A stretch of 35,925 nt of DNA, from the IMG/VR virus record IMGVR_UViG_3300030222_000025, positions 1 to 35,925 of that record; one strand, written 5' to 3'. Below are positions 975-35,229 of this stretch, one piece after another; positions within the stretch are counted from its first letter, which is position 1; every line of letters begins with the position of its first letter. The DNA comes from a virus. The position numbers and the translations under genes were made by a program. Under the pieces are notes generated by a model, which was not told the DNA's origin, did no database searches, and was given only the letters and a program-made list of their open reading frames with translations.

Positions 975-979
975 TCAGG
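965..979. promoter_or_regulatory. Late-type dyad, copy 3 (methyltransferase promoter)
   Basis: The plus strand reads CCGGAAGAGTTCAGG, one mismatch from the perfect dyad CCGGAA-N3-TTCCGG seen at 18368 and 26612. On the minus strand a TTAGG box follows about 25 bases downstream, near where a -10 would sit. The site overlaps the tcmP stop codon and lies 140 bp before the methyltransferase start. It corresponds to Mu Pmom. The role as an activator site is inferred. Confidence 0.5.
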
Positions 980-7324: not shown

Positions 7325-7468
7325 TTAGCTTGCCGCTTTGGGCCAAAGCTCAATGGCCTGTGCCCGCCACGCGAGGTAGTCGCGGATCTCCTGCTCGAGC
7401 CAGAAGTCCAGACCCGTTGAGGTCAGGGCGGCGAGGCTCAGGAGGTCTCGTCGGAGATCCGCTTCAGA
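7325..7468 (-). CDS. E': gpE' tail assembly chaperone extension (predicted -1 frameshift)
   Basis: The -1 frame relative to E is open from inside the end of E to a TAA at 7325-7327. Its conserved core reads DFWLEQEIRDYLAWRAQAIE, typical of the second half of P2-type tail chaperones. The open stretch contains no ATG, GTG or TTG, so it can hardly be made on its own. A T4 run in GATTTTC (7468-7471) inside E, after the last -1 stop, is the likely slip site. Slipping at Phe84 would give an E-E' fusion of about 131 aa, close to the P2 fusion length. The T-gene follows, as in P2. Confidence 0.7.
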   Translation of the reverse strand, partial: SEADLRRDLLSLAALTSTGLDFWLEQEIRDYLAWRAQAIELWPKAAS

Positions 7469-7719
7469 AAATCCGCACCACCCTGATACTCAATCAGCTT
7501 TCGCTGGAGCTGCGCGTAGTCCAGGACATCCATCTCCTCGATCACCTCACGCGGCTGCTCGGTGAGGGACATAAGCAGATGGATTTCCTGTTCGCCGGGA
7601 TCCTTGGACGCCTTCCCGGCCGCGAGTTGATCCCGCACCTTCATGCGCCGGATAGAGACGCTTTCAATCGTGCGGCCGTCGACAGTAACCGGGTGCTGCA
7701 GAGTAATGCTGTCTCGCAT
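7438..7719 (-). CDS. E: gpE tail assembly chaperone
   Basis: The 93-aa product matches the short P2 gpE/phage tail assembly family: ITLQHPVTVDGRTIESVSIRRMKVRDQL, then a helical part ending LDYAQLQRKLIEY. These proteins coat the tape measure during tail assembly and are not in the mature tail. ATG 7719 has AGGAG seven bases upstream. The gene lies between the tail tube and the tape measure and ends in the region where the -1 frame E' opens. Confidence 0.85.
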   Translation of the reverse strand: MRDSITLQHPVTVDGRTIESVSIRRMKVRDQLAAGKASKDPGEQEIHLLMSLTEQPREVIEEMDVLDYAQLQRKLIEYQGGADFLKRISDETS

Positions 7720-7729
7720 TGCATTGCTC

Positions 7730-8233
7730 CTAAATGCCCAGCGCACGGCGGGTAGCCGCAAGCTGATCCACACCATCGACGACACGCACCATGGTTTCCA
7801 CATCGACCTCAGCGACGGGCACTTCATTGATCGTGACCTTGAGGTAGGAAGCGGTGAGCATGAGCTTCTGGGTGCCGCGCTGTCCCCGCTGCCAGGACCC
7901 GGGGTCGGTCGCCTTCACCAGACAGCGCGTCGAATACACGACACTCTCAGTACCGCTGCCGTCGGCAGCGGCCTGGGCCCCTCGGAGGGTGATTGGCACG
8001 TTGTTCTGCCCGATGTAGCGGTACAGCAGAGCATTGTACTCGCCGAAGGTGAGCTCAAACTCCAGCTTCTCCACAGAGCCCATGTCCACGTCGACCGGCG
8101 CAGCCATGCCGCCAGCGTGATACTCCTCGGTGAGAAGCGCCAAAGAAGGCGGCGTCCCCTCAGTGATCTTCCCGGCCCAGCCGAAGCCATCGATGAAAGC
8201 CGTGAAGTTGGTCAGTGTTTTCGGCAATGCCAT
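7730..8233 (-). CDS. FII: Major tail tube protein (P2 FII family)
   Basis: The 167-aa product has the length and beta-rich pattern of P2 FII: MALPKTLTNFTAFIDGFGWAGKI, then MGSVEKLEFELTFGEYNALLYRYIGQNNVPITLRGA, and a C-terminal KLMLTASYLKVTINEVPVAEVDV. It forms the inner tube of the contractile tail. It is 66 bases downstream of the sheath gene and 10 bases upstream of E. Confidence 0.93.
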   Translation of the reverse strand: MALPKTLTNFTAFIDGFGWAGKITEGTPPSLALLTEEYHAGGMAAPVDVDMGSVEKLEFELTFGEYNALLYRYIGQNNVPITLRGAQAAADGSGTESVVYSTRCLVKATDPGSWQRGQRGTQKLMLTASYLKVTINEVPVAEVDVETMVRVVDGVDQLAATRRALGI

Positions 8234-8299
8234 GCCGGTCTCCTTTGATCTGCTGCCTGGTCAGGCTGCGGTGTCAGTCAGAGGGTTTTCATCGCAGCG

Positions 8300-9712
8300 T
8301 CAGGCTGCCTCGAGAACCTGCTGAACAAGGGTTTCGTAGTAACCGGCGTTGCGATGCGCGCGGAACGTCAACCGCTCAAGCGGTGCCGGCGGCTCGATGT
8401 CGAAATCGAGCGTCAGCTTGCCAGCCATCATCTCCGCCTGGGTGTTCAGTTCCGGGTCGAGCCAGACACGGCCGCCAAGGATCGCACCACGCGCCTGAAG
8501 CGTGCGCAGGTAAGCCTGAACGCTCTCCTGGATGTCGATCACCAGCTGAGCGGAGAACGGCCGGTCCATGGCCCAGAGGAATGCCTGCTCCACCGAGTCA
8601 TAGATGACGTCGGCCGTGCGGCGGACACTGAGGAAAGCCCAGTGCGGATCGCTCGAACAGGTGCGGTTGCCCCAGAGCCGGTAGCCTTCCTTCTGCACGA
8701 TGGTGGCGACTTCGTTCTCGTTGAGCAGATTGGCGACCGTATTGGGATCCGACATGTTGAAGTCCACCGGCCGCGCGATACCGACGACGCCGTTTAGCAC
8801 CTGGTTGGACGGCGACCACCAGAAGCCACGCTCATTATCGAGCGCGGCCTGGCGACCCGCCGCCCGACCGGACGCCGGCTGAGCCACTGCAGCCTGGGCT
8901 TCCGTGTCGTAGACCATGACATGCGGATCGATCACGAAAATGCGGGAGGATCCCCAATCCTCACGATAGGAGATCGCAGCCGCGTCGTTCGTGTTGGGCC
9001 CGTCGGCAAAAACCGTACCCCGCAACCGCTCGGCGATGCCCAGCAGTTCCGCCACCACCGGGTTTGCGGTAGCTCCGGTGGTCGCTGTTGCGCTGGCGCC
9101 GGTCCCATCGCCGGCAATCGAGATGGTCGGCTCCGAGGTGTAGCCATAGCCGGCCTTCGTGAGAGAGATGCCGGTCACCACGCCGCTTTCAATCGTCGCC
9201 GTAGCTTCCGCACCCTGACCGCCGCCCCCGGAGAAGCTGACAGTCGCGGTCGTGTAGGCGGATCCGCCAGCATCGATGGAGATCGAGGCAACACCCACGG
9301 GCCGCACCGACGTGAAACCGGGCGCGATCAGGATCCGCGGCGTTACCTTCACCTCGGATTGAGCGGACAGCAGCGCATGTACACCGGTGAAGGCGGCACC
9401 ATCACCGATGATGTTGGACATGGTCTCGTTGATGTCCGCACCTTCCTCGACACGGACCACAACCACCATGGCCCCGGTCTGGTCAAAGATCGCATCCACG
9501 GCATCCTTGAGAGTGCCGTCTGTGCCGAGATCAACGGCCTTTCGCTGCTGACCCGCCAGAAGCACGGGCGTGTTGAGCGGGAAGGTCGCGGCCTTCGCGG
9601 CCGGAGCAGTTCCGATCAAGCCGATGACGCCTGAGCGCACGGTCTGAATCGGACGGATACCATCATCGATCTCAACGACCTCGATGCCATGCAGGAACTG
9701 TAGTTCAGCCAT
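8300..9712 (-). CDS. FI: Contractile tail sheath protein (P2 FI family) with inserted domain
   Basis: The 470-aa product is a tail sheath protein: N-terminal HGIEVVEIDDGIRPIQTVRSGVIGLIGTAP and a C-terminal half with LNGVVGIARPVDF, RLWGNRTCSSDP and LLVxDIQESVQ-type blocks. It is about 75 residues longer than P2 FI. The excess is a Gly/Ser/Thr-rich beta segment at about residues 137-216, with two units of the form GxAYTTATVSFSGGGG and AGYGYTSEPTISIAGDG. This falls where sheath proteins expose surface domains. I infer a decoration domain on the outer face of the tail. Confidence 0.93.
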   Translation of the reverse strand: MAELQFLHGIEVVEIDDGIRPIQTVRSGVIGLIGTAPAAKAATFPLNTPVLLAGQQRKAVDLGTDGTLKDAVDAIFDQTGAMVVVVRVEEGADINETMSNIIGDGAAFTGVHALLSAQSEVKVTPRILIAPGFTSVRPVGVASISIDAGGSAYTTATVSFSGGGGQGAEATATIESGVVTGISLTKAGYGYTSEPTISIAGDGTGASATATTGATANPVVAELLGIAERLRGTVFADGPNTNDAAAISYREDWGSSRIFVIDPHVMVYDTEAQAAVAQPASGRAAGRQAALDNERGFWWSPSNQVLNGVVGIARPVDFNMSDPNTVANLLNENEVATIVQKEGYRLWGNRTCSSDPHWAFLSVRRTADVIYDSVEQAFLWAMDRPFSAQLVIDIQESVQAYLRTLQARGAILGGRVWLDPELNTQAEMMAGKLTLDFDIEPPAPLERLTFRAHRNAGYYETLVQQVLEAA

Positions 9713-9723
9713 TTCAGTCTCCT

Positions 9724-10722
9724 CTAAGAACCAAACTCGACAATTGCGACGAAACCATCTTTGCCGTTGTAATCACCGGTGTATGAGCCCCCTGCGCCCA
9801 CGACCACCGAGAACTCTTCACCGCCTTGCAGATCAACCTGCTTGATGACCAGGCCGCCTGCCCCGCCACTGGATCCGGTTGTAGTGCCACCCCCAAGGCT
9901 ACCGATCTCACCATGCCCACCTGGAGCACCCATGCCGGGCAAGTTGAGATCACCGCCCGACGCTCCGCCGGGGGCACCCGGGTTCACGTGATCAACATTC
10001 AACGCACCGCCGCCGCCGCCATCGCCGCCGCCGGCAGTAAGAAGAAGCCCCCCGGTTCCAGCTGTTTGCGTGACCGTGGTGCTGCTGCCAGCGTTCGCAA
10101 AACCATTGCCTTCATCATTGTTGCCAGCGCCGCCACCACCTGCGGCCACCATCCAAACCCGAGTAACACCGGCGAGAGGGACATAGGTTGCGTCCACTGT
10201 GAAAACGCGAAGATTTGGCGCTCCGGCCAGACCTGCAATTGCAGTCGCAACAAAAGCGGTCGTTGCCAGTTGGGTTGTGTCCGTGCCCTGAGAAGCGGTT
10301 GGCGCTGTCGGTACGCCAGTCAAGGCCGGCGATGCCAGTGGGGCTTTCTGCGATAGAAGCGTCATCACCGTGGTCGCGAAATTGGGATCATCACCCAATG
10401 CCGCAGCCAACTCATTCAGTGTGTCCAAAGTCGCGGGAGGCGCGTTGAGAATGGTCTCAACTGCGGCCTGCACAAATGCTGTTGTCGCGAGGCGCGTGCT
10501 GTCAGTGCCGGGAGCAGGCGTTGGAGCTTCAGGCGACCCGGTAAACGTGGGGCTGTCGACGGGCGCTCGCAGCTCCACTTCCTGCTTGAGATAGGCGGTG
10601 CGGTTTGCCAGCTGCTTGGCTTGGGTGTTGGAAAGTCCATCAGGACCGCCGACAACCGGATCGGTTGTCTCGATCTGATAGATACCGAGCTCATAGAGCG
10701 CCTGCTCAGAGAGATTGGCCAT
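9724..10722 (-). CDS. Tail fibre protein with glycine-rich receptor-binding tip
   Basis: The 332-aa product begins with a Mu/P2-type attachment region (LGIYQIETTDPVVGGPDGLSNTQAKQLANRTAYL). Two fibre repeats of the form TFTGxPxAPTxxxGTDSTxLATTAFV follow at about residues 57-155. The C-terminal 150 residues are strongly Gly-rich (AAGGGGAG, GGGDGGGGG, GAPGGASGG), like polyglycine adhesin tips of some short fibre systems. It should bind the host receptor. ATG 10722 is preceded by GGGG; it overlaps the end of gene I by 17 bases. No fibre-assembly chaperone gene follows; the sheath gene starts 11 bases later. Confidence 0.9.
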   Translation of the reverse strand: MANLSEQALYELGIYQIETTDPVVGGPDGLSNTQAKQLANRTAYLKQEVELRAPVDSPTFTGSPEAPTPAPGTDSTRLATTAFVQAAVETILNAPPATLDTLNELAAALGDDPNFATTVMTLLSQKAPLASPALTGVPTAPTASQGTDTTQLATTAFVATAIAGLAGAPNLRVFTVDATYVPLAGVTRVWMVAAGGGGAGNNDEGNGFANAGSSTTVTQTAGTGGLLLTAGGGDGGGGGALNVDHVNPGAPGGASGGDLNLPGMGAPGGHGEIGSLGGGTTTGSSGGAGGLVIKQVDLQGGEEFSVVVGAGGSYTGDYNGKDGFVAIVEFGS

Positions 10723-11281
10723 CAATTACCCCGTGTGTGAAGGAGCCGTCATAGGTGATGGCGGCGTTATGGGTGTTGAGCGCGCGGTCGTACCGCAAGG
10801 CGTAGAGCTCACAGGCCTCCCTCTGGACGCGCTCGATGATTGTCTTGATCTGGGCCGCCTGCCGGATCGACACCGGCGACAGCATGTTCACCGTGTAGTA
10901 GGCCCAGTGCTCAAACTCGCTGTAGAAGTGCGTCCCGCGGTACTGCACACGACCGTCATAGCGTTTGGCATCTAGGCCTTCGGTGATCTCCACCTCGCCG
11001 TAACCTGTCGCGCGCAGGGCATCGCGTATGGCGCCGGCTGTGCCTTTCTTCCGGTGGATGGAGATCGATGCAGCTATGGCCGTGCGCTTATCGGCTTCCG
11101 GCCACTCGTCGTCCCAGAAGTCCACGCTGTAGGCCCAGGCAAGCCAGGGAAGCAGTGCTGCCGGGCAGGCTTGCGGATCCCAAAGCACATCGATGGGGAC
11201 CGGAATCGACAGGGCATCGCTGATCGCTTCAGCGGCCGCGTTTTCCAGCGGAGTCGAGTTGGGCGGCAGGAGATGGGTCAT
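10706..11281 (-). CDS. I: Tail protein I (P2 gpI baseplate)
   Basis: The 191-aa product matches P2 gpI: LLPPNSTPLENAAAEAISDAL at the start, then DPQACPAALLPWLAWAYSVDFWDDEW, and HRKKGTAGAIRDALRATGYG. It is a baseplate wedge component that links to the tail fibre, encoded directly downstream. ATG 11281 overlaps the stop of J by ATGA. Confidence 0.94.
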   Translation of the reverse strand: MTHLLPPNSTPLENAAAEAISDALSIPVPIDVLWDPQACPAALLPWLAWAYSVDFWDDEWPEADKRTAIAASISIHRKKGTAGAIRDALRATGYGEVEITEGLDAKRYDGRVQYRGTHFYSEFEHWAYYTVNMLSPVSIRQAAQIKTIIERVQREACELYALRYDRALNTHNAAITYDGSFTHGVIDGQSL

Positions 11282-12261
11282 GAGGCCACCTCTGATGTCA
11301 CCTCAATGGCGGTGACGTATGCTGTCTGAAGCTGAGATGGCTCCACATCGGCAGCAGGCTGCACCAGCCGCACTTTCTCGACACCCTCAACCGTCAAAGC
11401 CGCCTTCAGCCCCGACTCCGTCACTCGCCGGCCGATACGGTGCTGCGCGGCCGCATACGCTTCGACAGCAGCACGGGCGGCGGCTTCAATCAGCGGTGCC
11501 TCAGGCCCATCGGACACCTCGAGAATGGCTTCGATGCCATAGGTAACAACCCCTACCGGCTGCACGATCACAGTGTCGGTGAGCGGCCGCACATGTTCGG
11601 ACGTGAGATGCGCGGAAACCGCATCCAGGACACTCTGCGCTGGCGTGCCATCACCATCCCACCCCATCACCGCTACGGTGACTTCTCCCGGGTTGGTCTG
11701 CACCGCTTCAATGTCCTTGACGGCTGCAGCCGCGCCGTCGGCGTCAAAGGCATATGAAATCATGACCATGCCAGGCTCAGTCGCCGCGACGGAGACCGAC
11801 ACAGGCGTTTCGCCGGCGGACAGGCCGTTGAAGATGTAGCCGCCACGTGGCCCGGCCACAGACATGGCCTCTGGGGACAACTGGACGCGACGCAGGAAGG
11901 CGTCGTCGGCTTCGTGTGTTGGCGGAATTGGAGGCAACGCTCCGGGGTCACCCGGATCCAGCACTAGGCGCTCTACGGCATAGCGCGCGGCGATGTGATC
12001 CAGATCTGAGCCACGTGCAAAAGCAAGCATGACTGACCGGGCCGCATCATTAACCCGCTGCCGGACAAGCATGGCTTCATAGGCGGCCACCTCCAGCAGC
12101 TTGACCGCTGGATCCGACTCCAGAACTCTGGCTGAGAAACCCGGAAAGCGCGTTTCCATCGCCGACAAAAGCGCCTGCTTGCCAGCCTCGAACGAAATCT
12201 CCTCAATGACCTCTGGCTTGGGCAACCTGCCCAGATCAATGACATCGAACCGGGCACTCAT
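11278..12261 (-). CDS. J: Baseplate assembly protein J (P2 gpJ / gp6-like wedge)
   Basis: The 327-aa product matches the baseplate J family, with DAARSVMLAFARGSDLDHIAARYAVERL, DDAFLRRVQLSPEAMSVAGPRGGYIF and GVVTYGIEAILEVSDGPE. It forms the baseplate wedge with W and I. ATG 12261 overlaps the stop of W by ATGA, and its own stop overlaps the start of I in the same way, so W-J-I are likely coupled in translation. Confidence 0.94.
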   Translation of the reverse strand: MSARFDVIDLGRLPKPEVIEEISFEAGKQALLSAMETRFPGFSARVLESDPAVKLLEVAAYEAMLVRQRVNDAARSVMLAFARGSDLDHIAARYAVERLVLDPGDPGALPPIPPTHEADDAFLRRVQLSPEAMSVAGPRGGYIFNGLSAGETPVSVSVAATEPGMVMISYAFDADGAAAAVKDIEAVQTNPGEVTVAVMGWDGDGTPAQSVLDAVSAHLTSEHVRPLTDTVIVQPVGVVTYGIEAILEVSDGPEAPLIEAAARAAVEAYAAAQHRIGRRVTESGLKAALTVEGVEKVRLVQPAADVEPSQLQTAYVTAIEVTSEVAS

Positions 12262-15333: not shown

Positions 15334-17706
15334 CTAGGCCGGACGGCCGGCCTGGAGGCCACGGAAGTCCGTGATGGCCCCGCCATAGGCGTGACGGATC
15401 TTCCAGGTCAGCTGGTCATTGCTGAACATCGAACCGAAGGAGGGATTGTCCTGGACGAAGATCTCCGGCTCCTCCTGGCCATCGAGGAAACCGATCTCGA
15501 CAGAGGTGATGTCGTCAGAGTCGGCCGAGATGTACCAATCGTCGGGGTCATCCCAGTACCAGACCGGCATGACCTCGAGGGACAGGGACTGGACGAAGTT
15601 CTTGTCGTTTTCCGTGTTACGGCGGAAAAGATCGACGGCGTCTTCTTCCAGGTCCGGAGCCACCCAGAGGTAACGCGGCGGGATACCTAACTGCTCGCCG
15701 GAGTTCAGCTCAGCCTGCTTCACCATCGCGAGACGCCGCGCCGCGAGAGACGATTTGCTGAGCGGGTCAGCCGCGAGGTTGTTGTGGCTTGCATGGAAGA
15801 GGGCCACACCATCGTAGATCACCGGATTGGTCCGCAGCATATCGAGCACGAACTTCCCAAGCGTCCGCTTGGCGGCACGGGAAAGCTTGGTCGGGATCTG
15901 CGAGATCGCCGCGACATCATCATTCTTGATCATCTCGAGCGTCACCTGCTCGGTGCCGCCACGCTTGGTCACCGAGTACTTCGCAACTTCATCGGTCGGG
16001 CTGTTGAGAGCATTGTAGGCACCGGACTCAGCGACCGTCGGGAGGTCACCATAGCCGCCCCAGCGCGTCCGTTCCTGCTCGCGGAAGTCATTGACCTGCG
16101 TGACACGGGCGAGATTCCGCCAGATGTCATACTGGGTACGGGTCCGATAGTCCGCGAGCATGCGCCGGGTAATGGCATCACCCAACACGGCCGCGAAGCT
16201 GCCGCTCGTAAGTGCCTCCCGCATGGCCGTGTCCGTGTTCTGGAGGAGACCGGTCACCCGGCTGTCACCCGTCACCTGAACGTAGGCCTCGCGAAACGAC
16301 CGTGCGTCACGATGGTTCGGGTGGTTCGCGTCGAAGAAGGCATCCAGGCGATCTTCGATCTTCTCGAACTGATCCTGAGTGACAGACGCGCTGCCGCTCC
16401 CGCCCAGACCGGAAACACGACCGCTCTCGGTGAAGTTTGCGAGATACTCGGCCTCTGCCTTGATAGCGTCCGTCACCTGAGTTTCCGTGAAGGACTCTTC
16501 ATCGTTGAAGCGGTTGGTCAGCCGCTCTTTCGCCTTTTCCGGCAGACTGGATGAAGCGATCAGCGTCCGGGCGGTGTTGCGCGCCTCAACCATACGGATG
16601 GCTTCGCGCATTTTCTCCCCGTCTTCCGCCGACAGCGGCGACGCGTTCTGTGTGCCGGGGTCTGCCGCAGGCGCAAGAGCTTCGCGCATGATGGAGGCCA
16701 GCTTGTCGTCTGACATAGCCTCGAGTGTTGCCCGGTTGTGCCCCCGGGCTTCGAGCATGGCGATGATTTCATCGCGATCCATGATGGTCTCCTTGATGTC
16801 GCCCCGCTGGGCTTCGATGAGGTCGATGACAGCGCCGCCCGCGCCGGGCTCCACGATCAGGTCGACTGAAACAATGCGTGTGAAAGCAACCGCCTCGCGG
16901 AAGCGCTGGCCGTCGCGTTGCACCACCTTGGCGCGGGCGCGGCTGTCGATGGAGAAACCGAACAAGCCGGTCAGGCCACGCTGCCAGGCCTCGCGCAGCT
17001 TCACCCCGATGGCACCCTCAGGCTCGATGAGATTGAGGGTGGCGCGGATCTCGCCGGCGTCGAAGGTCTTGCCCTCAACAAACTCAACGTCCTTGAGGGC
17101 ACCCACCAGGTTGCGGATGTCCTTGCCCTGGCCCGCCAGATGTTCGGCGTCGGACTTGGCGAAAACGCGGACGCCTTCGAACATCGAGACCGCTTCACGC
17201 AGCACCGCGTCTGGGTAGTAGTTGAGATTGCCTGAGGCCCCGGCGCGGATGACGCGAATGCGCCAGGCACCGCCCTCAGCATCCGCCTCGCGCAGGAAGA
17301 GGCTGTCCATCGCTTCAGCCATCTTCTCCGCACCACCCTGATCGGCGGGCGCGAATTTCTTGATGACCTCAGTGGGTTTGCCGAGGGTGACGTCCGTGCC
17401 GTTGATCAGATACGGGTAACGCATCAGACGGCCGTCCTTGCGCTCGACGATTACCGCATCGTCGAAGAGCCCGTGGATGTAAGGCCACCAGTCTTCGTCG
17501 CCCTTGAGCTCCAGCTCTTCGCGCAACGCGCCTTCGAGCAGGTTGCGAAGGTCTGACAGATCGCCTTCGAAAGCCTCGCGGACGGCATCCGATCCAATGA
17601 TGCCGAGGGTGGGTACATCACCCGCCGCCTCAACGAAGCGAGCGTCATGTTCGTGGCCGAGCGCCATGGCCAGGGCGGCCGCGCCCGTGAGTGGCAGCAT
17701 CTTCAT
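15334..17706 (-). CDS. Prohead protease-scaffold-major capsid fusion protein
   Basis: This 790-aa frame joins three functions that Mu encodes in separate genes. Residues about 150-305 resemble a prohead serine protease, with likely catalytic His189 (DAEHL) and Ser252 (FGFSID) and the terminal block RIVSVDLIVEPGAGG. Residues about 309-530 are charged and helical, as in a scaffold. From about 540 (GDAITRRMLADYRTRTQYDIW, later VFLD-type strands and WYWDDPDDWYISAD) the sequence is a Mu-type capsid protein. Residues 1-150 (WWPYIHGLFDDAVIVERKDGRLMRYPYLI) have no assigned role. A strong internal ribosome site precedes Met309, so scaffold-capsid may also be made alone. Confidence 0.88.
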   Translation of the reverse strand: MKMLPLTGAAALAMALGHEHDARFVEAAGDVPTLGIIGSDAVREAFEGDLSDLRNLLEGALREELELKGDEDWWPYIHGLFDDAVIVERKDGRLMRYPYLINGTDVTLGKPTEVIKKFAPADQGGAEKMAEAMDSLFLREADAEGGAWRIRVIRAGASGNLNYYPDAVLREAVSMFEGVRVFAKSDAEHLAGQGKDIRNLVGALKDVEFVEGKTFDAGEIRATLNLIEPEGAIGVKLREAWQRGLTGLFGFSIDSRARAKVVQRDGQRFREAVAFTRIVSVDLIVEPGAGGAVIDLIEAQRGDIKETIMDRDEIIAMLEARGHNRATLEAMSDDKLASIMREALAPAADPGTQNASPLSAEDGEKMREAIRMVEARNTARTLIASSSLPEKAKERLTNRFNDEESFTETQVTDAIKAEAEYLANFTESGRVSGLGGSGSASVTQDQFEKIEDRLDAFFDANHPNHRDARSFREAYVQVTGDSRVTGLLQNTDTAMREALTSGSFAAVLGDAITRRMLADYRTRTQYDIWRNLARVTQVNDFREQERTRWGGYGDLPTVAESGAYNALNSPTDEVAKYSVTKRGGTEQVTLEMIKNDDVAAISQIPTKLSRAAKRTLGKFVLDMLRTNPVIYDGVALFHASHNNLAADPLSKSSLAARRLAMVKQAELNSGEQLGIPPRYLWVAPDLEEDAVDLFRRNTENDKNFVQSLSLEVMPVWYWDDPDDWYISADSDDITSVEIGFLDGQEEPEIFVQDNPSFGSMFSNDQLTWKIRHAYGGAITDFRGLQAGRPA
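16780..16794 (-). promoter_or_regulatory. Internal ribosome-binding site and ATG in the protease-capsid gene
   Basis: On the minus strand AAGGAGA (16794-16788) is followed after five bases by an in-frame ATG (16782-16780), codon 309 of the fusion gene. Initiation here would give a 482-aa scaffold-capsid product lacking the protease. Its position exactly after the protease-type terminal block argues that it is functional, in the way that Mu Z is read from inside I. Confidence 0.6.
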
Positions 17707-18613: not shown

Positions 18614-19507
18614 TTACTGGAGGGCAGCGGCCAGATCGCGCTTGCGGGGGTCAAGACGGATCTCTTCATCAGAAATTGGAAGCCGGCCGGGCTGGCTGAC
18701 CTCCCAACTCTCCATCACCGGCAGCGAGACGCAGCCGCAGTTGATGGTTTCCTTCGCCGGTCCTTGCGGGTCGCGCGGGAACATCAGCTCCACCCCATTG
18801 ACGGTAAATGGCTTGTCGGTGTCCTGGATCTGGCCATCGGCCAGGTCATGGGCCGTGCGGCTGTGGATCTTTCCGGATCTGCGCCACTGCTTCTTGAGGC
18901 CCGGCAGATAGGGCTTTGCCTGGTTAAAGCGCTCCTGCCCGGCGACCGAGAAGGCCCGGCCCATTTCCGTGCGGGTGATAGTGAGGGCGCGCGTGCGCGA
19001 GACATTGAGGGAGTTCTGCACGGCGGTGGCCGCCTTCGCAGGTGTCTGCGTGCCGATCATCGATAAGCCGATCTGATTGGCTGCCTTCTGAGCGGCCTCC
19101 CGTGCCACATCCTTCATGCGATCCAACTGAAATGTTCTGATGGCTGCCAGCTGTCGCAGATCGAGCTCCGGGAGAATGATGGCGAGACGAATGCCCCCTG
19201 CGGCGAGCGGTCGATCCAGGACGGCCGCGCCGAGTTCGAAGGCGCGCGTGCTGCCGGCAGCGGCACGGGTGCCGAGCTGCTCGCCAATGGCTGCGAGGCT
19301 TGCATCCAGGGAGCGCCGGATTTGGGCCAGTTGCCATGTCTGGAACTCTGTGGGTGTGCCGGCTAGTTGAGCCGTCACGATCTCGCGTGCGTTCTCAAGC
19401 AACCTCTCAACGTCCCGTATGGCAGCGGTCTGCTCGTCGTTGAGTTCACGGAGAACCGCCTTCAGCTCGGCTGCGAATGCTTGGGTTTTTTCGTTGTCGG
19501 AAAGCAT
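18614..19507 (-). CDS. F: Phage head morphogenesis protein (Mu F / SPP1 gp7 family)
   Basis: The 297-aa product carries the family core: ITRTEMGRAFSVAGQERF (about 177-194), KQWRRSGKIHSRTAHDLADGQ (206-226), then LMFPRDPQGPAKETINCGC (241-259). A helical N-terminal half precedes it. These minor capsid proteins act at the portal vertex during head assembly. ATG 19507 is used here; a TTG six bases upstream would also work. No good ribosome site is visible. In Mu, F directly follows the portal gene; here a 1.55-kb insertion with a plus-strand gene separates them. Confidence 0.92.
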   Translation of the reverse strand: MLSDNEKTQAFAAELKAVLRELNDEQTAAIRDVERLLENAREIVTAQLAGTPTEFQTWQLAQIRRSLDASLAAIGEQLGTRAAAGSTRAFELGAAVLDRPLAAGGIRLAIILPELDLRQLAAIRTFQLDRMKDVAREAAQKAANQIGLSMIGTQTPAKAATAVQNSLNVSRTRALTITRTEMGRAFSVAGQERFNQAKPYLPGLKKQWRRSGKIHSRTAHDLADGQIQDTDKPFTVNGVELMFPRDPQGPAKETINCGCVSLPVMESWEVSQPGRLPISDEEIRLDPRKRDLAAALQ

Positions 19508-19735
19508 GAGCAATCAGTTTGAGTGTTCAAATGACCGAAGCTGTGCCTGACTCCCCGGGGGACGGCCTTCGTTTGCGTCGAAACTTGCCTTTACCACTGG
19601 GCCGACTGCGAACGTGCTGGGCATCCCAAGGCGCTCCGCAATAGTCAGGACCAATTGCACTTGGCACCGGTATTCATCAGTGTTTTTTCGTAGGATTCGA
19701 CTGACGCTAGCGGGCAACAAACAGGGGGAATTTGC

Positions 19736-20896
19736 ATGGCTAAGTATGATTACAACCGAGACAAATGGATATTGGAGAACGATGTCGAAGGTCTTGGTTC
19801 TGCCGGCAGTACGTTCGCTGCGGGTCAGATAGATCATTTTGCGAGAATGGAAGTCAAAGCAGCCAATGACATAGAGAGTGTGCTTTGCAGAACTGAATGC
19901 GATCTCCCTTCTCACCTCTGGCAAGGCGCACGACTCCTCATGAATGCAATGGCCCTGCGGACTCGCGGAGCTCTGTTTCAGGCCGAAAACTATGTCCGAG
20001 CAGGACTTGAAGCATACGAACAGGGACTCTCGTTGTCGCTGTGCGACAAAGTGAATGAAGCTAGGGCAGAGGTGTTGGCGAATAATGCTGATGCCTTCAT
20101 CTCTGACTTGACCATGAAGGGTGGTGGAGACCCAACGCCTCTTCCGTACCCTGAAGATGATCCTCTGTTGCCCCCTGGGAGCCACGCGACCCAGAGACTT
20201 GCTTTTCAGCTTCAGCAAGCCAACGACTTGCTGACCTCTGCCGAGCAATTCAATGGAGAAGCGATGGCAGCATCCAAAACGGCGATCAGCAAGCTGGAAG
20301 AGATCGAGACGCGTCAGCTGGAATGTGACAAAGCAGAACAAGTTCGAGAAAAACAACACAAGGAGCGTATTTCCGAACTCGAGAGAGCAATGGAGGAGAG
20401 GCTCTCGTTGGGCGCGCAGACAGAGCTCTGGGAAAAACGCGCATCGCACACGCAATGGTACAAGCTCGGGTGGTTTGCCGCCGTGCTTTTGACTGGCGGT
20501 CTTCTCGCAACCGCTTTCTACATCGCTGCAGTATGGATCAATCGCGATTGGCAGATCCTCCTCGGGGCGATTACGGGAGAGAACAGTCACCTCCTCCCGC
20601 TGATCATGGCGCTGGTCATTATCCCCGTGGGGCTCGTTTTTTGGTTCTTGCGTATCCTGCTTCGCAACTATCGAGAAACACGTGCCATTGAGGACGACGC
20701 CAGAGAGCGGACGACAATGCTGCAGACCTACATTTATCTTGTAGCCGAGGGCAAAATGTTGCCAGAGGACCGAATGGTAGTCCTGCATGCGTTGTTCCGC
20801 CCAAGGGCAGTGGATAACGTTGACGATGGAAATGCCACTCTCATCAGCCAGTTCGTCCAATCGCTTCGTGACGGCCAATCGAGCGGCGGCAAGTAA
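19736..20896 (+). CDS. Membrane-anchored coiled-coil protein, DUF6161-like, plus-strand moron
   Basis: The 386-aa product has a soluble helical N terminus (1-125) and a proline-rich acidic linker (about 130-150). A coiled coil (about 153-238) follows, then two transmembrane helices (about 244-267 and 286-308) and a cytosolic C terminus (RTTMLQTYIYLVAEGKMLPEDRMVVLHALFRPR, 325-357). The C-terminal motif resembles DUF6161 proteins, of unknown function; I hold this tentatively. ATG 19736 has AGGGGGA upstream. The gene opposes the late operon, splits portal from F and is more AT-rich than its neighbours, all signs of acquired cargo. An exclusion or abortive-infection role is inferred from architecture only. 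Confidence 0.85.
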   Translation: MAKYDYNRDKWILENDVEGLGSAGSTFAAGQIDHFARMEVKAANDIESVLCRTECDLPSHLWQGARLLMNAMALRTRGALFQAENYVRAGLEAYEQGLSLSLCDKVNEARAEVLANNADAFISDLTMKGGGDPTPLPYPEDDPLLPPGSHATQRLAFQLQQANDLLTSAEQFNGEAMAASKTAISKLEEIETRQLECDKAEQVREKQHKERISELERAMEERLSLGAQTELWEKRASHTQWYKLGWFAAVLLTGGLLATAFYIAAVWINRDWQILLGAITGENSHLLPLIMALVIIPVGLVFWFLRILLRNYRETRAIEDDARERTTMLQTYIYLVAEGKMLPEDRMVVLHALFRPRAVDNVDDGNATLISQFVQSLRDGQSSGGK

Positions 20897-21066
20897 TAGT
20901 GAACTCTGCGCCTGGCATACCAATACGTATTGGGACCTTGACCAGTTCCGGTCTTTGACGCGCCCGCAGGATGTGAATGCCAACGACCGTTTCCGCCTGG
21001 ACAACAGTGTCTTGGTGGATTCATAGAAAGCAGTTTCACCACCATTGGATTCAACGTCGGAGGCAA
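20897..21066. other. Gap between the membrane moron and the portal gene
   Basis: The 170-bp gap has no gene I can support. It contains a perfect 14-bp palindrome, CCAATACGTATTGG (20920-20933), 24 bases after the moron stop codon, without a T-run. Nearby, 20937-20951 matches the CCGGAA dyad only in its right half (CAGTTCCGG). The region may hold a terminator or operator for the moron. Confidence 0.3.
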
Positions 21067-22572
21067 TCACCCCGTCTGTTCCTCGATCTTGCTGGTCTCA
21101 CCCATTCCAAACCCCTGGAAGGTGTCATCTTCTTTCCGCACCCGAGCTTCCTCTCTTGCAGCCTCCAACTCAGCAGTCGCGTCTATCTCCAGCCCAAGCT
21201 GCCCGGCAACAAGGCCGATCATCGCAATGCCCGTTTGCTCAGACATGAGACCCCGGTCAATTGCCGCGCCAACTGCCAGAACGACCTGGCTGAGCGCGAC
21301 CGCGTACTTGCTGGTGTCCTTCGCCGTGAGTTCAGGGAACACGGCAACCGGCTGGAAGTCCGGATCCTCGAGCATCCCGTTGCCACCGGCTTCGGTGCCG
21401 AAGATCGCGATGATCCGCATGCGCACGACGAAGCGCAGTACTTCCGTGATCATGTAACCAACCAGACGCTGGCGCATGGTGAAGATCTTGAACGTTGGCT
21501 CACCCATCTCACCAGCGGTCGCACGGTTCACATCAGAACCACCACCAAACCAATGCTCGGGGATGGTGCCGCCACCCATGACATGGTTTCGCATGAGCCG
21601 CGCATTCTTCTCGGCATCGACGGCCTTCAGGTCAGGCGTGACGGCTGTCCATTTCTCGCCTTCGTTGTGCACGCGCACACTGCCTGGGTGGGGTGTCTTT
21701 ACCTCTGCCGCACGGGCTTTGACTTCTTCCGGCGTTGCGCCGGTCAGTTCCAGATCCCAGATGAAGGCCCGCAGGAAATCCCAGCGTTCGAGCTCGCCGA
21801 ACATGGCGTTCTCGTAGCCGTCGATCCAGTCGATCTGAGACAACAGGTCAGAGTGCCCCCGCGATGACACGGACAGATCATTCACCCGGAAGTAAAAGCA
21901 GTCTCCGTCGCTGAAGCCTTCACGGATCTCTCGCGCGCGTTCGGTGAAGACGTCCTCGGGTCCATTCACGATGATCCGGTAGCGTCGCGCGTGCCCCTTC
22001 TTGTCCTTGCGAGTGACAATGCCGATTGGCTGCTCGACATTGTCCGGGTCCAGTACAACGGTCTCGATAAGACCGGGATCCAGATAGCCCAGCCGGACAT
22101 GCCCGTTGAACTCATTGACAAAGACTGGCCAGCACTGCTCGCCGAATATGGCTAGCTCACGCACCTTCTTCGGCAACTTCAGATCCATCGCATTGATGGG
22201 ATCATTCCAGAACTTGTCGATCCACTCTCTGGCCTCTTCGTCGCCGATGTCGACCTTGAGACCCTCGGCAAGCAGATAGGCCAGCGGCAGCTCAATCAGC
22301 CGGTTGGCAAGCGGGCTCGTTTTCCACTGATAGACCGCGAGCTCCTGCATGCGCCGTTGGGCGATGGGATTGAGATCGCGCTTGCTTTCGCCGGTGAGGC
22401 GCTTCCAGCCGGTCATGTCTTCGGTCCCAACCGTCGTGCCGGCCGCCTCGACCATGCGGGTGTCAGAGGGTGTGCTGTTCGCGCTGTAGCCCATGCCAAC
22501 GGACCGGGCAGCAGCCTGCAAGGCACTCAGTCCCCACGTTCCCCACCATTGCGCTTCAGACTTCAATCCCAT
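21067..22572 (-). CDS. Phage portal protein
   Basis: The 501-aa product has portal features: an N-terminal helical region with VYQWKTSPLANRLIELPLAYLLAEGLKV, a core with ELAIFGEQCWPVFVNEFNGHVRLGYLDPGLIETVVLDPDN, the loop and stem around FRVNDLSVSSRGHSDLLSQIDWIDGYENAMF, and a C-terminal helical crown. It forms the dodecameric DNA channel of the head. It overlaps the terminase gene by 10 bases, the usual terminase-portal pairing of Mu-type phages (gp28-gp29). Confidence 0.9.
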   Translation of the reverse strand: MGLKSEAQWWGTWGLSALQAAARSVGMGYSANSTPSDTRMVEAAGTTVGTEDMTGWKRLTGESKRDLNPIAQRRMQELAVYQWKTSPLANRLIELPLAYLLAEGLKVDIGDEEAREWIDKFWNDPINAMDLKLPKKVRELAIFGEQCWPVFVNEFNGHVRLGYLDPGLIETVVLDPDNVEQPIGIVTRKDKKGHARRYRIIVNGPEDVFTERAREIREGFSDGDCFYFRVNDLSVSSRGHSDLLSQIDWIDGYENAMFGELERWDFLRAFIWDLELTGATPEEVKARAAEVKTPHPGSVRVHNEGEKWTAVTPDLKAVDAEKNARLMRNHVMGGGTIPEHWFGGGSDVNRATAGEMGEPTFKIFTMRQRLVGYMITEVLRFVVRMRIIAIFGTEAGGNGMLEDPDFQPVAVFPELTAKDTSKYAVALSQVVLAVGAAIDRGLMSEQTGIAMIGLVAGQLGLEIDATAELEAAREEARVRKEDDTFQGFGMGETSKIEEQTG

Positions 22573-23945
22573 CGAGTGCGCCCCCCGCTGTACGCGCCGC
22601 CAGGTCGGGCAAGGAGGGGTAGTCTCCCCTCGCCGTCATCGTTGGTGTGGTGACGGTAGGCGTCAGGGTCATGTGCCACGGAGCTGCCCGCTGCTGGTGG
22701 CGCCCCGCATGCGCCGGCACACGCCATGAAGCACGACCAAGCCCGGTCGGCATGGCCATCGCCTTCCGTGTCGGCGATCAGGCGCGGGTGCCCTGTCGGT
22801 CCTATCGCCTTCTTGAGCTGGTGCAGGTCTTTGCGCAGCAACAGATCGGCCTGAGGGATGCGGAGACGCCTATCCTCAAACCGTTGCTTTGCGATGGTTG
22901 CCATGTCGAGGCGACGGGCCGGTGTGAACTGGACCCCTTCCACACGCGATGATCCATAGCGGCGCTGCGCATCCTCGACGGGTTTCTCGCCCATACCGGT
23001 CTGGTCCATCACCAGACGCACCACCTGATACCGAAGCATGAGCTCGTCCAGCAGCGCATCCTGTTCGGAGAATTTGATCTTACGGGCGGTGAGGATCTCC
23101 CGCGTCCACAAAACATCCCCGACCTGCTCCATCACCCATGCAACCCAGAGGTCGCGGCGGCGGGCGATATCATTGCCGATGAAGCATGGGCCGCCCTGGT
23201 ATTGCGCCGGATCACCGGCATCCGGATGCTCGCAGCTATCGATGAGATCGTAAGTCAGCCAGGCAAGGGCCTCGTCAAGGAACTTGAGCTCAAACTCCTG
23301 GGCCCAGGCATCCTCGTCACCAAGAGCGGTTCTGAGCGCATCAATGTCACGTGGCAGACCGTCTGCGACCGCGCGGTAGATATCTACGATGTGCCGGGAC
23401 CACTGCGGATCGTTGCCGGTGATGAGCTCGTAGAATTTGTTGCCCTTGCCGTTAGGCGTCGAGGTGATCCGGATCTTGTAGCCATCAGAGATGACGGGAA
23501 ACAGCGCCTTCCAGATCGCACGGCTGTCCGCGTGAAACGCAAACTCGTCCAGGAAGACATTGGATGCGAAACCGCGAGCTGTATCTGGATTGGCAGGCAA
23601 CGCCGTAACCCGCGATCCACCAGGGTAGGTCACCTCCAGCGATTTGTATTTGACAGCGCCGCTTTCGAACTCACCTTCAAGAACATCGATAGCAGCTCCG
23701 TATGCTTTTGCATGCGGCTTGAGACCCTCTTCAACGGCTTCGCGTGCCTGACGTTCCCCGCGCGACAGGATCACCCAACGCGTGCGGCCGCCATGGCTCT
23801 CTGTCTCGTAGCAGTCATCATTGATTTCGGCTGTCGTGGTGAAGGTCTTGCCTGTCTGCCGAGCGAACATGCCGATCTTGAATCGCGAGCGGTCAAGAAA
23901 CCACTCGCGTTGATAGTCGTAGAGGCCAAGTGCTGGAGCCGTCAT
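22563..23945 (-). CDS. Terminase large subunit (Mu gp28-like)
   Basis: The 460-aa product has an ATPase domain with Walker A ARQTGKT (28-34) and Walker B VFLDEF with Asp133-Glu134, then the coupling motif ITSTPNGKGNKFY (160-172). The C-terminal nuclease domain shows Asp259 (IGNDIARR), Asp314 (LVMDQTG) and Asp400 (GHADRAWS). It packages DNA into the prohead by headful cutting, as in Mu. ATG 23945 overlaps the stop of the small-subunit gene by ATGA. The last 30 residues are Gly/Arg-rich. Confidence 0.95.
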   Translation of the reverse strand: MTAPALGLYDYQREWFLDRSRFKIGMFARQTGKTFTTTAEINDDCYETESHGGRTRWVILSRGERQAREAVEEGLKPHAKAYGAAIDVLEGEFESGAVKYKSLEVTYPGGSRVTALPANPDTARGFASNVFLDEFAFHADSRAIWKALFPVISDGYKIRITSTPNGKGNKFYELITGNDPQWSRHIVDIYRAVADGLPRDIDALRTALGDEDAWAQEFELKFLDEALAWLTYDLIDSCEHPDAGDPAQYQGGPCFIGNDIARRRDLWVAWVMEQVGDVLWTREILTARKIKFSEQDALLDELMLRYQVVRLVMDQTGMGEKPVEDAQRRYGSSRVEGVQFTPARRLDMATIAKQRFEDRRLRIPQADLLLRKDLHQLKKAIGPTGHPRLIADTEGDGHADRAWSCFMACAGACGAPPAAGSSVAHDPDAYRHHTNDDGEGRLPLLARPGGAYSGGRTRWD

Positions 23946-24496
23946 TGCGCGGGCCCCACGATGCCGTAAATGTCACGCCGCACGATAGCGAGAGTTTCCG
24001 TGTCTACACGACGGGAACCCTGCGAGCCTTCCTGTTCAAGCTCGTCGAGCTTTTTGCCTACATCCTTTTGGATCTGCTCACGCAGCTTTAGCTCACGATC
24101 CTGGTCGAGCTTCGACGCCTGCGCCAGATCCTTGAGGGCGCGGCCGAGGAACATCGCTTCCTGTGCGGACAGGACGATATCGTCGCCATCCTCGCCCGAG
24201 AGAAGGGACATCAGGTTTGCATGCATCAGCTCAATGTTGAGCCGCGCCTGACGGTTATCGTTGGAAGCCCCCAGCCGGTCCATGATGGCGTCGGCGGCCG
24301 CGCGGCTTTCCCGCACGCGTTCGGCAATCGCATCGATCCTCTGCGTGTGCCGCGCCAGGGCCGAACGCGAGACTTCAACATCGAGCTCTTTCAGCTTGTT
24401 GAGAATGGCGTCAATCGCAACGCCGTTCATCCGCAGTTGGCCGATCAGTTCACGGATGTCGCGCGGCAATTGATCGATGGTGGACGGCCGGGCCAT
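23942..24496 (-). CDS. DUF3486 protein (Mu gp27-like, putative terminase small subunit)
   Basis: The 184-aa helical product begins MARPSTIDQLPRDIRELIGQLRMNGVAIDAILNKLKEL and has a helix-turn-helix-like VSRSALARHTQRID, both typical of DUF3486. In Mu, gp27 occupies this place immediately before gp28 and is the presumed small subunit that recognises phage DNA ends. The rest is coiled coil (KLDQDRELKLREQIQKDVGKKLDEL). Confidence 0.9.
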   Translation of the reverse strand: MARPSTIDQLPRDIRELIGQLRMNGVAIDAILNKLKELDVEVSRSALARHTQRIDAIAERVRESRAAADAIMDRLGASNDNRQARLNIELMHANLMSLLSGEDGDDIVLSAQEAMFLGRALKDLAQASKLDQDRELKLREQIQKDVGKKLDELEQEGSQGSRRVDTETLAIVRRDIYGIVGPAQ

Positions 24497-25405: not shown

Positions 25406-25973
25406 CGGTGCGCCCTGCGATGATGGTGTTGATCGTCTCGTTCTTGCGCGCGGATCCGGCGCTTGATCCGAAGTAGTAGTTGCCCTGCTGCAGCAACAAA
25501 CCTCCAAGGGCACCAAGCATCACGTTGAGTGGCTGCTGGGCACTCTCCGGCACCTCAACAAAGATCAGGGCAGAAAGGATGCCGAAGAACCCGGTGATGG
25601 TTGCCAGGGCGATGAAGCCAGGCATCCGGTCCTTGGTCTGGATTTGCCGGTCACGGGCAGATGCACGGTCTCCCGCCGCGATGCGCTCCAGGTCGACATC
25701 AAGCTCTTCCATGCGAACGGCAAAGTCGGCCTCGATCTGCTTGAGTCGAACAAGCTGCTCGGGCGAGGCATTGTAGATCGCAGTCATCGCCTTTTCAGGA
25801 TCGTCGGAGGTCTCTCCGTCGCCCAGCAACGCACCGGTAATGAAGCGGGCAGCCATGGCCGCAAACGGGCCGGCCGGGGCAGCGACGGCTGTGGCAAGCG
25901 TTGGGGCCACTTCGCGCAGGACACCCTTGGCGCGGTCCCAGAAGTTGGGGTCGTCTTTGGCGCGGCGGCTCAT
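25398..25973 (-). CDS. Putative holin (DUF3154/3TM type)
   Basis: The 191-aa product has an Ala-rich hydrophobic N-terminal segment (about 20-50), a charged helical centre (EQLVRLKQIEADFAVRMEELDVDLERI), and two C-terminal transmembrane segments (MPGFIALATITGFFGILSALIFV and VMLGALGGLLLQQGNYYFGSS). This is the pattern of the 3TM phage holin family. It follows the endolysin gene directly with an ATGA overlap (25970-25973), which fits a holin that releases the lysozyme to the periplasm. Confidence 0.85.
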   Translation of the reverse strand: MSRRAKDDPNFWDRAKGVLREVAPTLATAVAAPAGPFAAMAARFITGALLGDGETSDDPEKAMTAIYNASPEQLVRLKQIEADFAVRMEELDVDLERIAAGDRASARDRQIQTKDRMPGFIALATITGFFGILSALIFVEVPESAQQPLNVMLGALGGLLLQQGNYYFGSSAGSARKNETINTIIAGRTGG

Positions 25974-26557
25974 GCGTATGCCCTCCGCAGCCAACCGCGT
26001 TGATACTTGCGGCGCACCGGATCGGCCACGACAAGACCACGATAAAAGCCGGCCGCCTCCGAACGCAGCGCCGTCAGGAGCGGGTTGAAATCATCGTCGA
26101 TGCCCCAGCTCTCTAGCTGAACCTCGTCGATGGCCCGATGGGTCAGCCCACCGATTACACCGTCATCGGCAATCACCTGGCCGCAGGCCCGGCATGCACG
26201 CTGCAGGCACTTGTGTGACTGCCGGGCGCCCATGTTCACGGACAGGTCAATCACCTTCGCGCCAATGAACTCTGGCAGCTCACCGTACCCGTACTTGTCC
26301 CACCACTGATCGTGATAGATGCCGACCGCAACCGCCATTGGCATCTGGCGAATGTCATGGGCATCGATGTCGCCGTCCAGATCGAAGTCCAGGTCGTTCC
26401 GACCATCCCCGTCTAGATCTATTTCGCCGAGCCGGGTGGCATAACGGAGGCTTATGCCCCAGTTCGTTGCCCCTCCGGGGTCCGCAGCGTCGTCAACAAA
26501 ACCGCCCTCGTGTTCGAGGACGGTTGCGACAGCGCGTTCAAATGCTTCATCTGACAT
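25970..26557 (-). CDS. Endolysin, GH108-type N-acetylmuramidase with inserted calcium-type loops
   Basis: The 195-aa product has the glycoside hydrolase 108 signature LEHEGGFVDDAADPGGATNWGIS (14-36), with Glu17 of EGG as likely catalytic residue. The peptidoglycan-binding C-terminal part has DQWWDKYGYGELPEFIGAKVIDLSVNMG. Between them, at about 47-68, lie two Asp-rich loops, DLDGDGRND and DLDGDIDAHD, of EF-hand or dockerin style. These suggest calcium binding and are an insertion relative to most family members. No signal peptide is seen, so export depends on the holin. It is the first gene of the late lysis/head operon. Confidence 0.93.
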   Translation of the reverse strand: MSDEAFERAVATVLEHEGGFVDDAADPGGATNWGISLRYATRLGEIDLDGDGRNDLDFDLDGDIDAHDIRQMPMAVAVGIYHDQWWDKYGYGELPEFIGAKVIDLSVNMGARQSHKCLQRACRACGQVIADDGVIGGLTHRAIDEVQLESWGIDDDFNPLLTALRSEAAGFYRGLVVADPVRRKYQRGWLRRAYA

Positions 26558-29166: not shown

Positions 29167-29688
29167 CTACGCGACCTCCTCGAGTTCGGTCTCGAAGGGT
29201 TTGATGACGAAGTCCTCAACGCCAATGATGCCGCTCACACCATCGACCGCGACGGCCTTCTCCAGCTCTGCGATCATCGCTTCCTTGTTGATCTCCTCCT
29301 TGATGCGGATGAACTGGGTGAGACCAAGCTCCTTCACCCGCTCAAGCACCCTGACGGCACCACGAATGCGGATCGCCGGCGGCCGTCGCCGCCAGCAAAC
29401 TTCACCTGCCGCGAAACGATGGAACTTTCGCCGACCATCCCCCGTGAGCTCGCTTCGGTGCGCTTCACAAAACACCTGAAGGCCGGATGTGTGCTCCGCC
29501 AAGGACTCCTTCAGCGGCGCAGCCAGGGCCTCGTAGTGAGCCTTGGTCTCTGCAAGGCGGTCATTCATCTCGGTCCGGATCGTGTCCAACCGGCGTTGGG
29601 TGTCACCGATGTGTTCAACGAAGCTGTTGGCTTCCTCCATCGATTGCGGCACCGGGTGATCTGCAGCCTTTGACTTCACGCGTGCCAT
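29167..29688 (-). CDS. gam: Host-nuclease inhibitor Gam
   Basis: The 173-aa product matches Mu Gam. It has an N-terminal coiled coil (IGDTQRRLDTIRTEMNDRLAETKAHYEALAAPLKESLAEHTSGLQVFCEAHR) and the core RRKFHRFAAGEVCWRRRPPAIRIRG, then RIKEEINKEAMIAE. Gam is a Ku-like protein that binds double-stranded DNA ends and shields them from RecBCD-type nucleases. ATG 29688 has AGGAGG eight bases upstream; an extension to 29736 lacks such a site. Confidence 0.93.
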   Translation of the reverse strand: MARVKSKAADHPVPQSMEEANSFVEHIGDTQRRLDTIRTEMNDRLAETKAHYEALAAPLKESLAEHTSGLQVFCEAHRSELTGDGRRKFHRFAAGEVCWRRRPPAIRIRGAVRVLERVKELGLTQFIRIKEEINKEAMIAELEKAVAVDGVSGIIGVEDFVIKPFETELEEVA

Positions 29689-29777
29689 CTGGATGGCCTC
29701 CTCTTCTTTCCGGGTAGAAACATGGTCCGCCACCAACGCAGGAGCTGCCGGAGACGGCTGTGTCGGGAGCGGTTCAT
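29676..29777 (-). CDS. Possible 33-aa basic peptide
   Basis: A short frame starts at ATG 29777, overlapping the upstream stop by ATGA, with GGGAG upstream. It ends 13 bases into gam. The peptide is Arg/Trp-rich (SRLRQLLRWWRTMFLPGKKRR) and could be membrane-active or a leader for coupling gam translation. Only the context supports it. Confidence 0.35.
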   Translation of the reverse strand: MNRSRHSRLRQLLRWWRTMFLPGKKRRPSRWHA

Positions 29778-30521: not shown

Positions 30522-31487
30522 TCACGCTGCAATCGCGTTGGGAGACAGCTTTTCCCACGCAGCCTTGAGGTGTCGGAGTGACCGCTCCTTCTCTTCGCCC
30601 GCTGCCAGCATCGACGCGAGCTGCAGGCACTTCGTCATCGTCCTCAGCGCACCGGGCTTCGCCGCCACGGCCTTGAGGAATTTCTTCTCTTCGGCATCCG
30701 TGACGCCCCAGGCGTCGATGAGCTTGCACATGTCCGAAGCAAGCGGTTTGGACCGGGTGACCCGGACGCCGATCCGGGAGAACAGCTGGGCGAATTGAGC
30801 CTTGCCGCCATTGCCTTCCAGACGGCCATACACTGTCTCGTTCCCGACAAGCGCGATGCCGATGTTGTAGCGGTCATAGATGGACCGCAGAAAGTCGAGC
30901 GCTTCCGGCTTGAGATGCTGAGCTTCGTCAATGATCAGGAGCCCACCAGTGCCTTCCAGCTTCGCCCCGATGGCGCGAGCAAACTTCGCTGCGCTACGTT
31001 CAACGACGCCCAACACATGAATGAGCTCATGCTGCATCGCGCCGCAAGTGGAGGTGGTCGGGTTCATGGTGGCCACCCACACATTCGGCGCAGCTGCAGC
31101 ATACTCGTGACAGGCCGTTGTCTTCCCGATGCCGGCCGCACCAGCGACGACCGAGATTTCCGGCATCACCTGTGCAAAGTGAAGCGCGTCCATGAACTCC
31201 TTTGCTGACCGTGTCGGCTGGAAATCGGGCGCGCGGGTGATCGATGCGGCTGTCCGCTTCCGGGTCTCCCGATCAGCCAGCCAGATTGAGACCTGGCCGG
31301 TCACCTTGTCGTTGTCACCCTTGTAGTGACCGCGATACCAGCCGGTGAAGGTGCCGTAGGCGATACCGGCCTGTCGCGCGACGTCAGCCTGCGTCAGGCT
31401 TTCCATCTCAATGATCCCGGTGACGCGCTTGCGCGTATCCTCGATCTCGGCGGCGGTGAAGGTGGTTTCGTCGGTTTTGGTGTTCAT
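30522..31487 (-). CDS. B: MuB-type ATP-dependent target-capture protein (AAA+)
   Basis: The 321-aa product has an N-terminal helix-turn-helix (about 32-52, TQADVARQAGIAYGTFTGWYRG) as in MuB. The ATPase core carries Walker A GAAGIGKTT (116-124) and Walker B LLIIDEAQH (183-191). MuB forms ATP-dependent filaments on target DNA, delivers it to the transposase and gives target immunity. GGGAGA lies upstream of ATG 31487. The gene is 34 bases after a hairpin in the A-B gap. Confidence 0.94.
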   Translation of the reverse strand: MNTKTDETTFTAAEIEDTRKRVTGIIEMESLTQADVARQAGIAYGTFTGWYRGHYKGDNDKVTGQVSIWLADRETRKRTAASITRAPDFQPTRSAKEFMDALHFAQVMPEISVVAGAAGIGKTTACHEYAAAAPNVWVATMNPTTSTCGAMQHELIHVLGVVERSAAKFARAIGAKLEGTGGLLIIDEAQHLKPEALDFLRSIYDRYNIGIALVGNETVYGRLEGNGGKAQFAQLFSRIGVRVTRSKPLASDMCKLIDAWGVTDAEEKKFLKAVAAKPGALRTMTKCLQLASMLAAGEEKERSLRHLKAAWEKLSPNAIAA

Positions 31488-31514: not shown

Positions 31515-31548
31515 GAGGGCGCGTTTTGCTTGCCGGCAGCGCGTCCTC
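31515..31548 (-). other. Hairpin at the A-B junction
   Basis: GAGGGCGCG (31515-31523) pairs with CGCGTCCTC (31540-31548) with one G-T pair and a 16-base loop. It spans the end of the transposase gene and the short gap before B. There is no T-run, so it is more likely an mRNA structure affecting B translation or mRNA decay than a terminator. Confidence 0.3.
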
Positions 31549-35095: not shown

Positions 35096-35229
35096 AGGAA
35101 CCTACGCTTTCGACAAATATCTCGTTTTTTGTCGTTAGTTTTCTCGATTGAGAACAGCATAGGCGATTCTTGTCGTGTCAGCCAGACAAAAAGCGTCATT
35201 TTACGTTTTTTATACCGGATTATTTTCCT
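35096..35229. promoter_or_regulatory. Repressor/Ner divergent operator-promoter region
   Basis: This AT-rich 134-bp region between the divergent repressor and Ner genes holds four half-sites TTGTCG or its complement: CGACAA at 35111, TTGTCG at 35129, TTGTCG at 35170 and GACAAA at 35185. They form two inverted pairs and are candidate repressor or Ner sites. A TATGCT on the minus strand (35161-35156) is a possible early -10. TATACC (35211-35216), 14 bases before the repressor ATG, is a possible repressor -10. Confidence 0.6.

Follow-up and report, generated by a model that had tools for sequence, protein, structure and literature searches.

AbiZ, the abortive-infection protein to which the gene described here is related, lies on the lactococcal plasmid pTR2030 (PMC10884400). 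In its presence, infected Lactococcus lactis cells lyse about 15 min early and the phage titer drops about 100-fold (PMC10884400, PMC6356687, PMC7182436). When a holin is expressed together with AbiZ, lysis is faster and membrane permeability is higher, and an interaction with the holin has been proposed (PMC10884400, PMC6356687, PMC7182436). A second point of comparison comes from the Mu-like phages of the D3112/DMS3 group, whose regions of genomic plasticity (RGPs) occupy fixed sites and hold low-GC accessory genes gained by horizontal transfer; RGP G carries anti-CRISPRs, and RGP H lies in the head module (PMC4378225). Prophage defense morons and AbiZ are both already known, and what is new here is an AbiZ-family gene in the setting of a Mu-like prophage.

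The window analyzed is the whole stretch of IMG/VR record IMGVR_UViG_3300030222_000025 (35,925 bp), which corresponds to a Mu-like transposable phage according to its gene content (Table 1). The closest portal relative (64%) was found in a prophage of Tepidicaulis marinus. Since the remaining portal relatives belong for the most part to alpha-, beta-, and gammaproteobacteria, the host of this phage is probably a proteobacterium.

Table 1. Features of the moron gene, its insertion site, and the surrounding phage genome
Feature	Coordinates	Strand	Basis or remark
AbiZ-family (DUF6161) membrane protein gene, 386 aa	19736-20896	+	ATG start
Shine-Dalgarno AGGGGGA	19723-19729	+	Sequence; 6 nt 5' of ATG
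Predicted coiled-coil region, about residues 160-236	20213-20443	+	AF2 helix (low confidence), coiled-coil PDB profile matches
DUF6161 match, residues 194-354	20315-20797	+	PF19658, 40.4 bits vs cut-off 27
TM helix 1, residues 248-266	20477-20533	+	Hydropathy
TM helix 2, residues 286-304	20591-20647	+	Hydropathy
Cassette upstream spacer	19514-19735	+	GC 0.55
Cassette downstream spacer	20897-21066	+	GC 0.52
TGATTGC at portal stop, copy 1 of 7-bp direct repeat	21063-21069	-	Flanks insert
TGATTGC at F start, copy 2 of 7-bp direct repeat	19510-19516	-	Flanks insert
TcmP-like three-Cys-motif partner protein	975-1871	-	GC 0.51, low for phage
Gp37/Gp68-family protein	1868-2662	-	
Capsid	15334-17706	-	
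F-like head morphogenesis gene, intact	18614-19513	-	Phage_Mu_F/phrog_2468; start TTG 19513 or ATG 19507
Portal protein gene, intact	21067-22572	-	phrog_10963, E=1e-64
Large terminase	22563-23945	-	
Gp27-like small terminase	23942-24496	-	
Phage's own endolysin, lysis module	25970-26557	-	phrog_315
Gam	29167-29736	-	
MuB-like	30522-31487	-	
MuA-like transposase	31547-33496	-	
CI-like repressor	35170-35925	+	phrog_4, 7e-40; other recognized gene of the + (lysogeny) strand

In the window, the portal and F genes are separated by a gap of ~1.55 kb filled by a 386-aa gene that runs antisense to the late operon. A reading made from the sequence only had described this pair as normally continuous, which was borne out when the distance from portal stop to F start was measured in related loci of bacterial genomes and viral contigs. 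Among 132 distinct pairs, 80 were contiguous or overlapping (gap of at most 20 bp), 33 had gaps of 21 to 350 bp, 12 had gaps of 351 to 1000 bp, and 7 had larger ones; where portal identity was at least 60%, 10 of 11 pairs were contiguous. A relative of the window protein was encoded in none of these loci. The unusual base composition reported earlier was also found, the 1554-bp insert being GC poor and the moron gene having a GC of 0.535 and a GC3 of 0.584, compared to 0.598-0.628 and 0.68-0.78, respectively, for the terminase, portal, F, and capsid genes. Because it is a single gene of deviant composition, lies on the opposite strand, and is absent from relatives, the 386-aa gene is a moron, as first proposed, forming a single foreign cassette between the portal stop and the F start. 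Low-GC acquired accessory genes are what it shares with the RGPs of the D3112/DMS3 group, whose ORFs are, however, mainly 34 to 100 codons long, whereas the window gene lies on the opposite strand at the portal-F junction and encodes a membrane protein of 386 aa. The 7-bp direct repeat that flanks the insert may be due to chance, and its length is insufficient as proof of how the insertion occurred.

Large portal-F gaps elsewhere contain a variety of genes, most of which are on the late strand, with examples that were classified by eye as minor tail-completion-like, lysozyme-like, Dam-type methylase, and repeat-rich surface-like. Given these varied inserts, the gap is a variable site, and its interpretation as a dedicated defense hotspot or defense island was not supported. 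In one related locus (L148, 9335-10059), a 724-bp gap at the same site has a GC of 0.57, compared to 0.64 for the portal gene, and its sole ORF of at least 60 aa (178 aa) runs on the opposite strand; this gap is possibly a second antisense moron.

Several observations indicate that the 386-aa plus-strand gene is real, as the sequence-only reading had stated. It is preceded by a good Shine-Dalgarno sequence, and when the insert (1557 bp) was simulated 2000 times under a first-order Markov model, the longest ORF reached 332 aa, with a 99th percentile of 263 aa. Since the window ORF is longer than any simulated ORF and its protein has homologs, it is not a product of chance. An alphaproteobacterial protein (L196) aligns with it over 362 aa with 32% identity (E=6e-47), and the window frame therefore corresponds to a conserved protein. 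The antisense ORF at 19514-21070 (-), of 518 aa, lacks a Pfam match and was discarded as a shadow of this gene. Simple scans, which are blind to nonconsensus promoters, revealed no sigma-70 consensus in the upstream spacer, and similarly simple scans revealed no stable terminator in the downstream spacer. The coiled coil, two transmembrane (TM) helices, and DUF6161-like C terminus claimed for the protein were all recovered: a single-sequence AlphaFold2 model of low confidence (pLDDT 55) places a long helix at residues 149 to 268, hydropathy predicts both TM segments, and DUF6161 (PF19658) matches with an E value of 2.9e-10, above the Pfam gathering cut-off. The model was too weak for a fold search, and sequence searches of the PDB gave no homolog beyond coiled coils, with weak profile matches mostly to coiled-coil chains. 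Positively charged residues precede TM1 and follow TM2, which suggests that both ends of the protein are cytosolic.

The PADLOC AbiZ profile (PDLC02354) also matched the window protein (E=1.3e-8), with residues 155 to 354 aligned on positions 185 to 372 of the 398 of the profile. To place this match within the family, DUF6161 proteins were gathered from plasmids and from 754 gamma- and alphaproteobacterial genomes, 10 of which gave a match above the cut-off. Both the DUF6161 and the AbiZ profiles matched all nine aligned DUF6161 proteins. Conversely, WP_032398699.1 from the Lactococcus plasmid pUCCL629C, which is annotated as DUF6161, scored as AbiZ at 2.6e-166, and its gene adjoins those for an integrase, AbiA, and an LlaJI-family endonuclease. 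As a control for the coiled coil, the profile searches were repeated with the C-terminal 165 residues only. The resulting coiled-coil-free profile of the window and L196 proteins recovered AbiZ (1.2e-7) and all other members, while one built without these two proteins recovered the window protein at 1.1e-21; these reciprocal searches rule out the AbiZ match as a coiled-coil artifact. Direct comparison of the window protein with AbiZ by hhalign gave a probability of 95% (2e-8).

All DUF6161 members but one have two hydrophobic segments, with basic residues preceding TM1, and their TM/C-terminal core is conserved while their N-terminal regions vary greatly. The window protein has the layout of AbiZ, i.e., a C-terminal hairpin of two TM helices followed by a conserved cytosolic helix, and it shares with lactococcal AbiZ (pTR2030; WP_032398699.1 on pUCCL629C) the coiled coil, a conserved tryptophan before TM1, the two TM helices, and an 80-residue cytosolic tail. 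Similarity does not extend over the whole length, however, as the profile matches cover only the coiled-coil/TM/C-terminal half of the window protein; the BLASTP alignment begins at residue 64 and remains weak up to about residue 185. The relationship is remote (21% identity), and the N-terminal domains are not recognizably related. The two also differ in setting, AbiZ being carried by a lactococcal plasmid and the window gene by a Mu-like prophage that is probably proteobacterial. Taken together, the profile comparisons indicate that DUF6161 is the AbiZ family and that the window protein is a family relative of AbiZ, not its ortholog, because its N-terminal domain is not recognizably that of AbiZ. 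DUF6161 is not mentioned in the literature that we searched, and this uncharacterized Pfam family is hereby tied to a studied abortive-infection protein and placed in phages.

A family confined to housekeeping loci, which had been raised beforehand as the contrary case, is not what we observed. One DUF6161 gene (L195) lies in a lambda-like prophage near endolysin, terminase, and portal genes, where it precedes the lysis and terminase genes on the same strand. Another (L197) belongs to an element with a CI-like repressor, a phage primase, and an integrase. In this element, apparent membrane-protein genes (273, 385, and 268 aa; 7351-12094) flank the DUF6161 gene, the 385-aa one having no Pfam or PADLOC match, and the group is a candidate accessory or defense cluster. 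Plasmid-borne members were found in Rhizobium (with an integrase and VapBC), Vibrio (with a recombinase and a Phd/RelE-type pair), Sutcliffiella, and Lactococcus. Ordinary chromosomal neighborhoods also occur (L196 and L190-L192); the L196 gene lies among metabolic genes, whereas the window copy sits in a phage. Neither the window protein nor two-sequence alignments of it retrieved anything when viral and genome contigs were scanned, and tblastn of three family members against 50,697 annotated phage records gave zero matches. A scan with an alignment of the C-terminal motif did retrieve one phage contig (L211), where a DUF6161-like gene scoring 20 bits, under the Pfam cut-off, stands at the contig end and adjoins tail genes; MuA of the window phage has no match in this contig.

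The DUF6161 gene had a lower GC than its locus wherever the two were measured, by up to 17 points (for example, 0.434 versus 0.561 in L195, 0.522 versus 0.645 in L196, and 0.408 versus 0.576 in L211), and it is present in one of four genomes of the order of L196, the closest relative. These two features are the signature of a roving accessory gene. When the loci around the DUF6161 homologs were scanned, methyltransferases, HTH regulators, and a RelE toxin were found but no clear defense island. Weak alphaproteobacterial matches of 430 to 440 aa (L198-L203) were borderline and were set aside. Three of these borderline proteins (L199, L201, and L202) lie in a conserved chromosomal neighborhood of small alphaproteobacterial genomes and may represent a vertically inherited branch of the DUF6161 family.

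By analogy with AbiZ, we consider it rather probable that the moron encodes a prophage-borne abortive-infection protein of the AbiZ family that speeds up lysis when other phages infect the cell. The family assignment adds weight to the earlier suggestion of a role in phage exclusion or abortive infection, as DUF6161 is the family of lactococcal AbiZ (PMC10884400, PMC6356687). The protein would be made in the lysogen, and the position of its gene on the repressor strand, opposite to all recognized lytic genes, suggests an arrangement that suits such expression. It would reside in the inner membrane, with its coiled coil and its C-terminal helix on the cytosolic side and a short loop in the periplasm, and could sense late membrane events of an infecting phage, such as holin accumulation. 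By speeding membrane failure, it would cause the cell to lyse before virions mature and reduce the burst. A counterpoint is that the mechanism of AbiZ is itself only partly known and was studied in a Gram-positive host. With the present gene, this poorly understood mechanism of the lysis clock can be tested in laboratory hosts that are Gram-negative, and the question arises of how a temperate phage carries a lysis-hastening gene without self-harm. We speculate that antisense late transcription could lower expression of the gene during the phage's own lytic cycle, as its own lysis proteins appear. The broader proposal that AbiZ/DUF6161 is a recurrent, previously unrecognized lysis-clock defense of prophages, from which the phage protects itself by antisense placement in the late operon, with late transcription silencing the defense at the time when the phage produces its own lysis proteins, is tentative and in our view unlikely.

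Superinfection exclusion, in which the membrane protein would stop the DNA of related phages from entering across the inner membrane and leave lysis timing unchanged, is an unlikely alternative to hastened lysis. Prophage proteins with two TM helices often act in this manner, and the topology of the window protein fits. The exclusion genes carried by Pseudomonas aeruginosa lysogens of beetrevirus, which is Mu-like (PMC9936078), also count in its favor. Against this stand the family link to AbiZ, for which early lysis has been reported, the mostly cytosolic nature of the protein, and the presence of homologs on plasmids and chromosomes of unrelated bacteria. Still more doubtful is that the DUF6161/AbiZ fold serves as a generic oligomeric membrane-damage module that responds to another cue, such as depolarization or envelope stress, and kills without a holin. 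Divergent N termini joined to a conserved TM/C-terminal core are what one would expect if the members shared an effector but differed in their sensors, yet the cassette contains no second gene for a sensor or antitoxin. Finally, it is improbable that the gene is a passenger without a present defense role or that it adjusts the lysis clock of its own phage during the lytic phase: AbiZ-type proteins do affect when lysis occurs, and the phage encodes an endolysin of its own, but the 386-aa frame is intact, with a good Shine-Dalgarno sequence and a conserved product, and a lytic role is disfavored because the gene is oriented opposite to all recognized lytic genes.

Other parts of the window also have accessory features. 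The CI-like repressor gene likewise has a low GC (0.537), and given this composition, the immunity region may have been exchanged. At the tail end, the overlapping TcmP-like and Gp37/Gp68-family genes make up a second accessory cassette (975-2662, minus strand), and a DNA methyltransferase gene (phrog_56, 5e-79) occupies positions 1 to 825 of the minus strand at the edge of the record.
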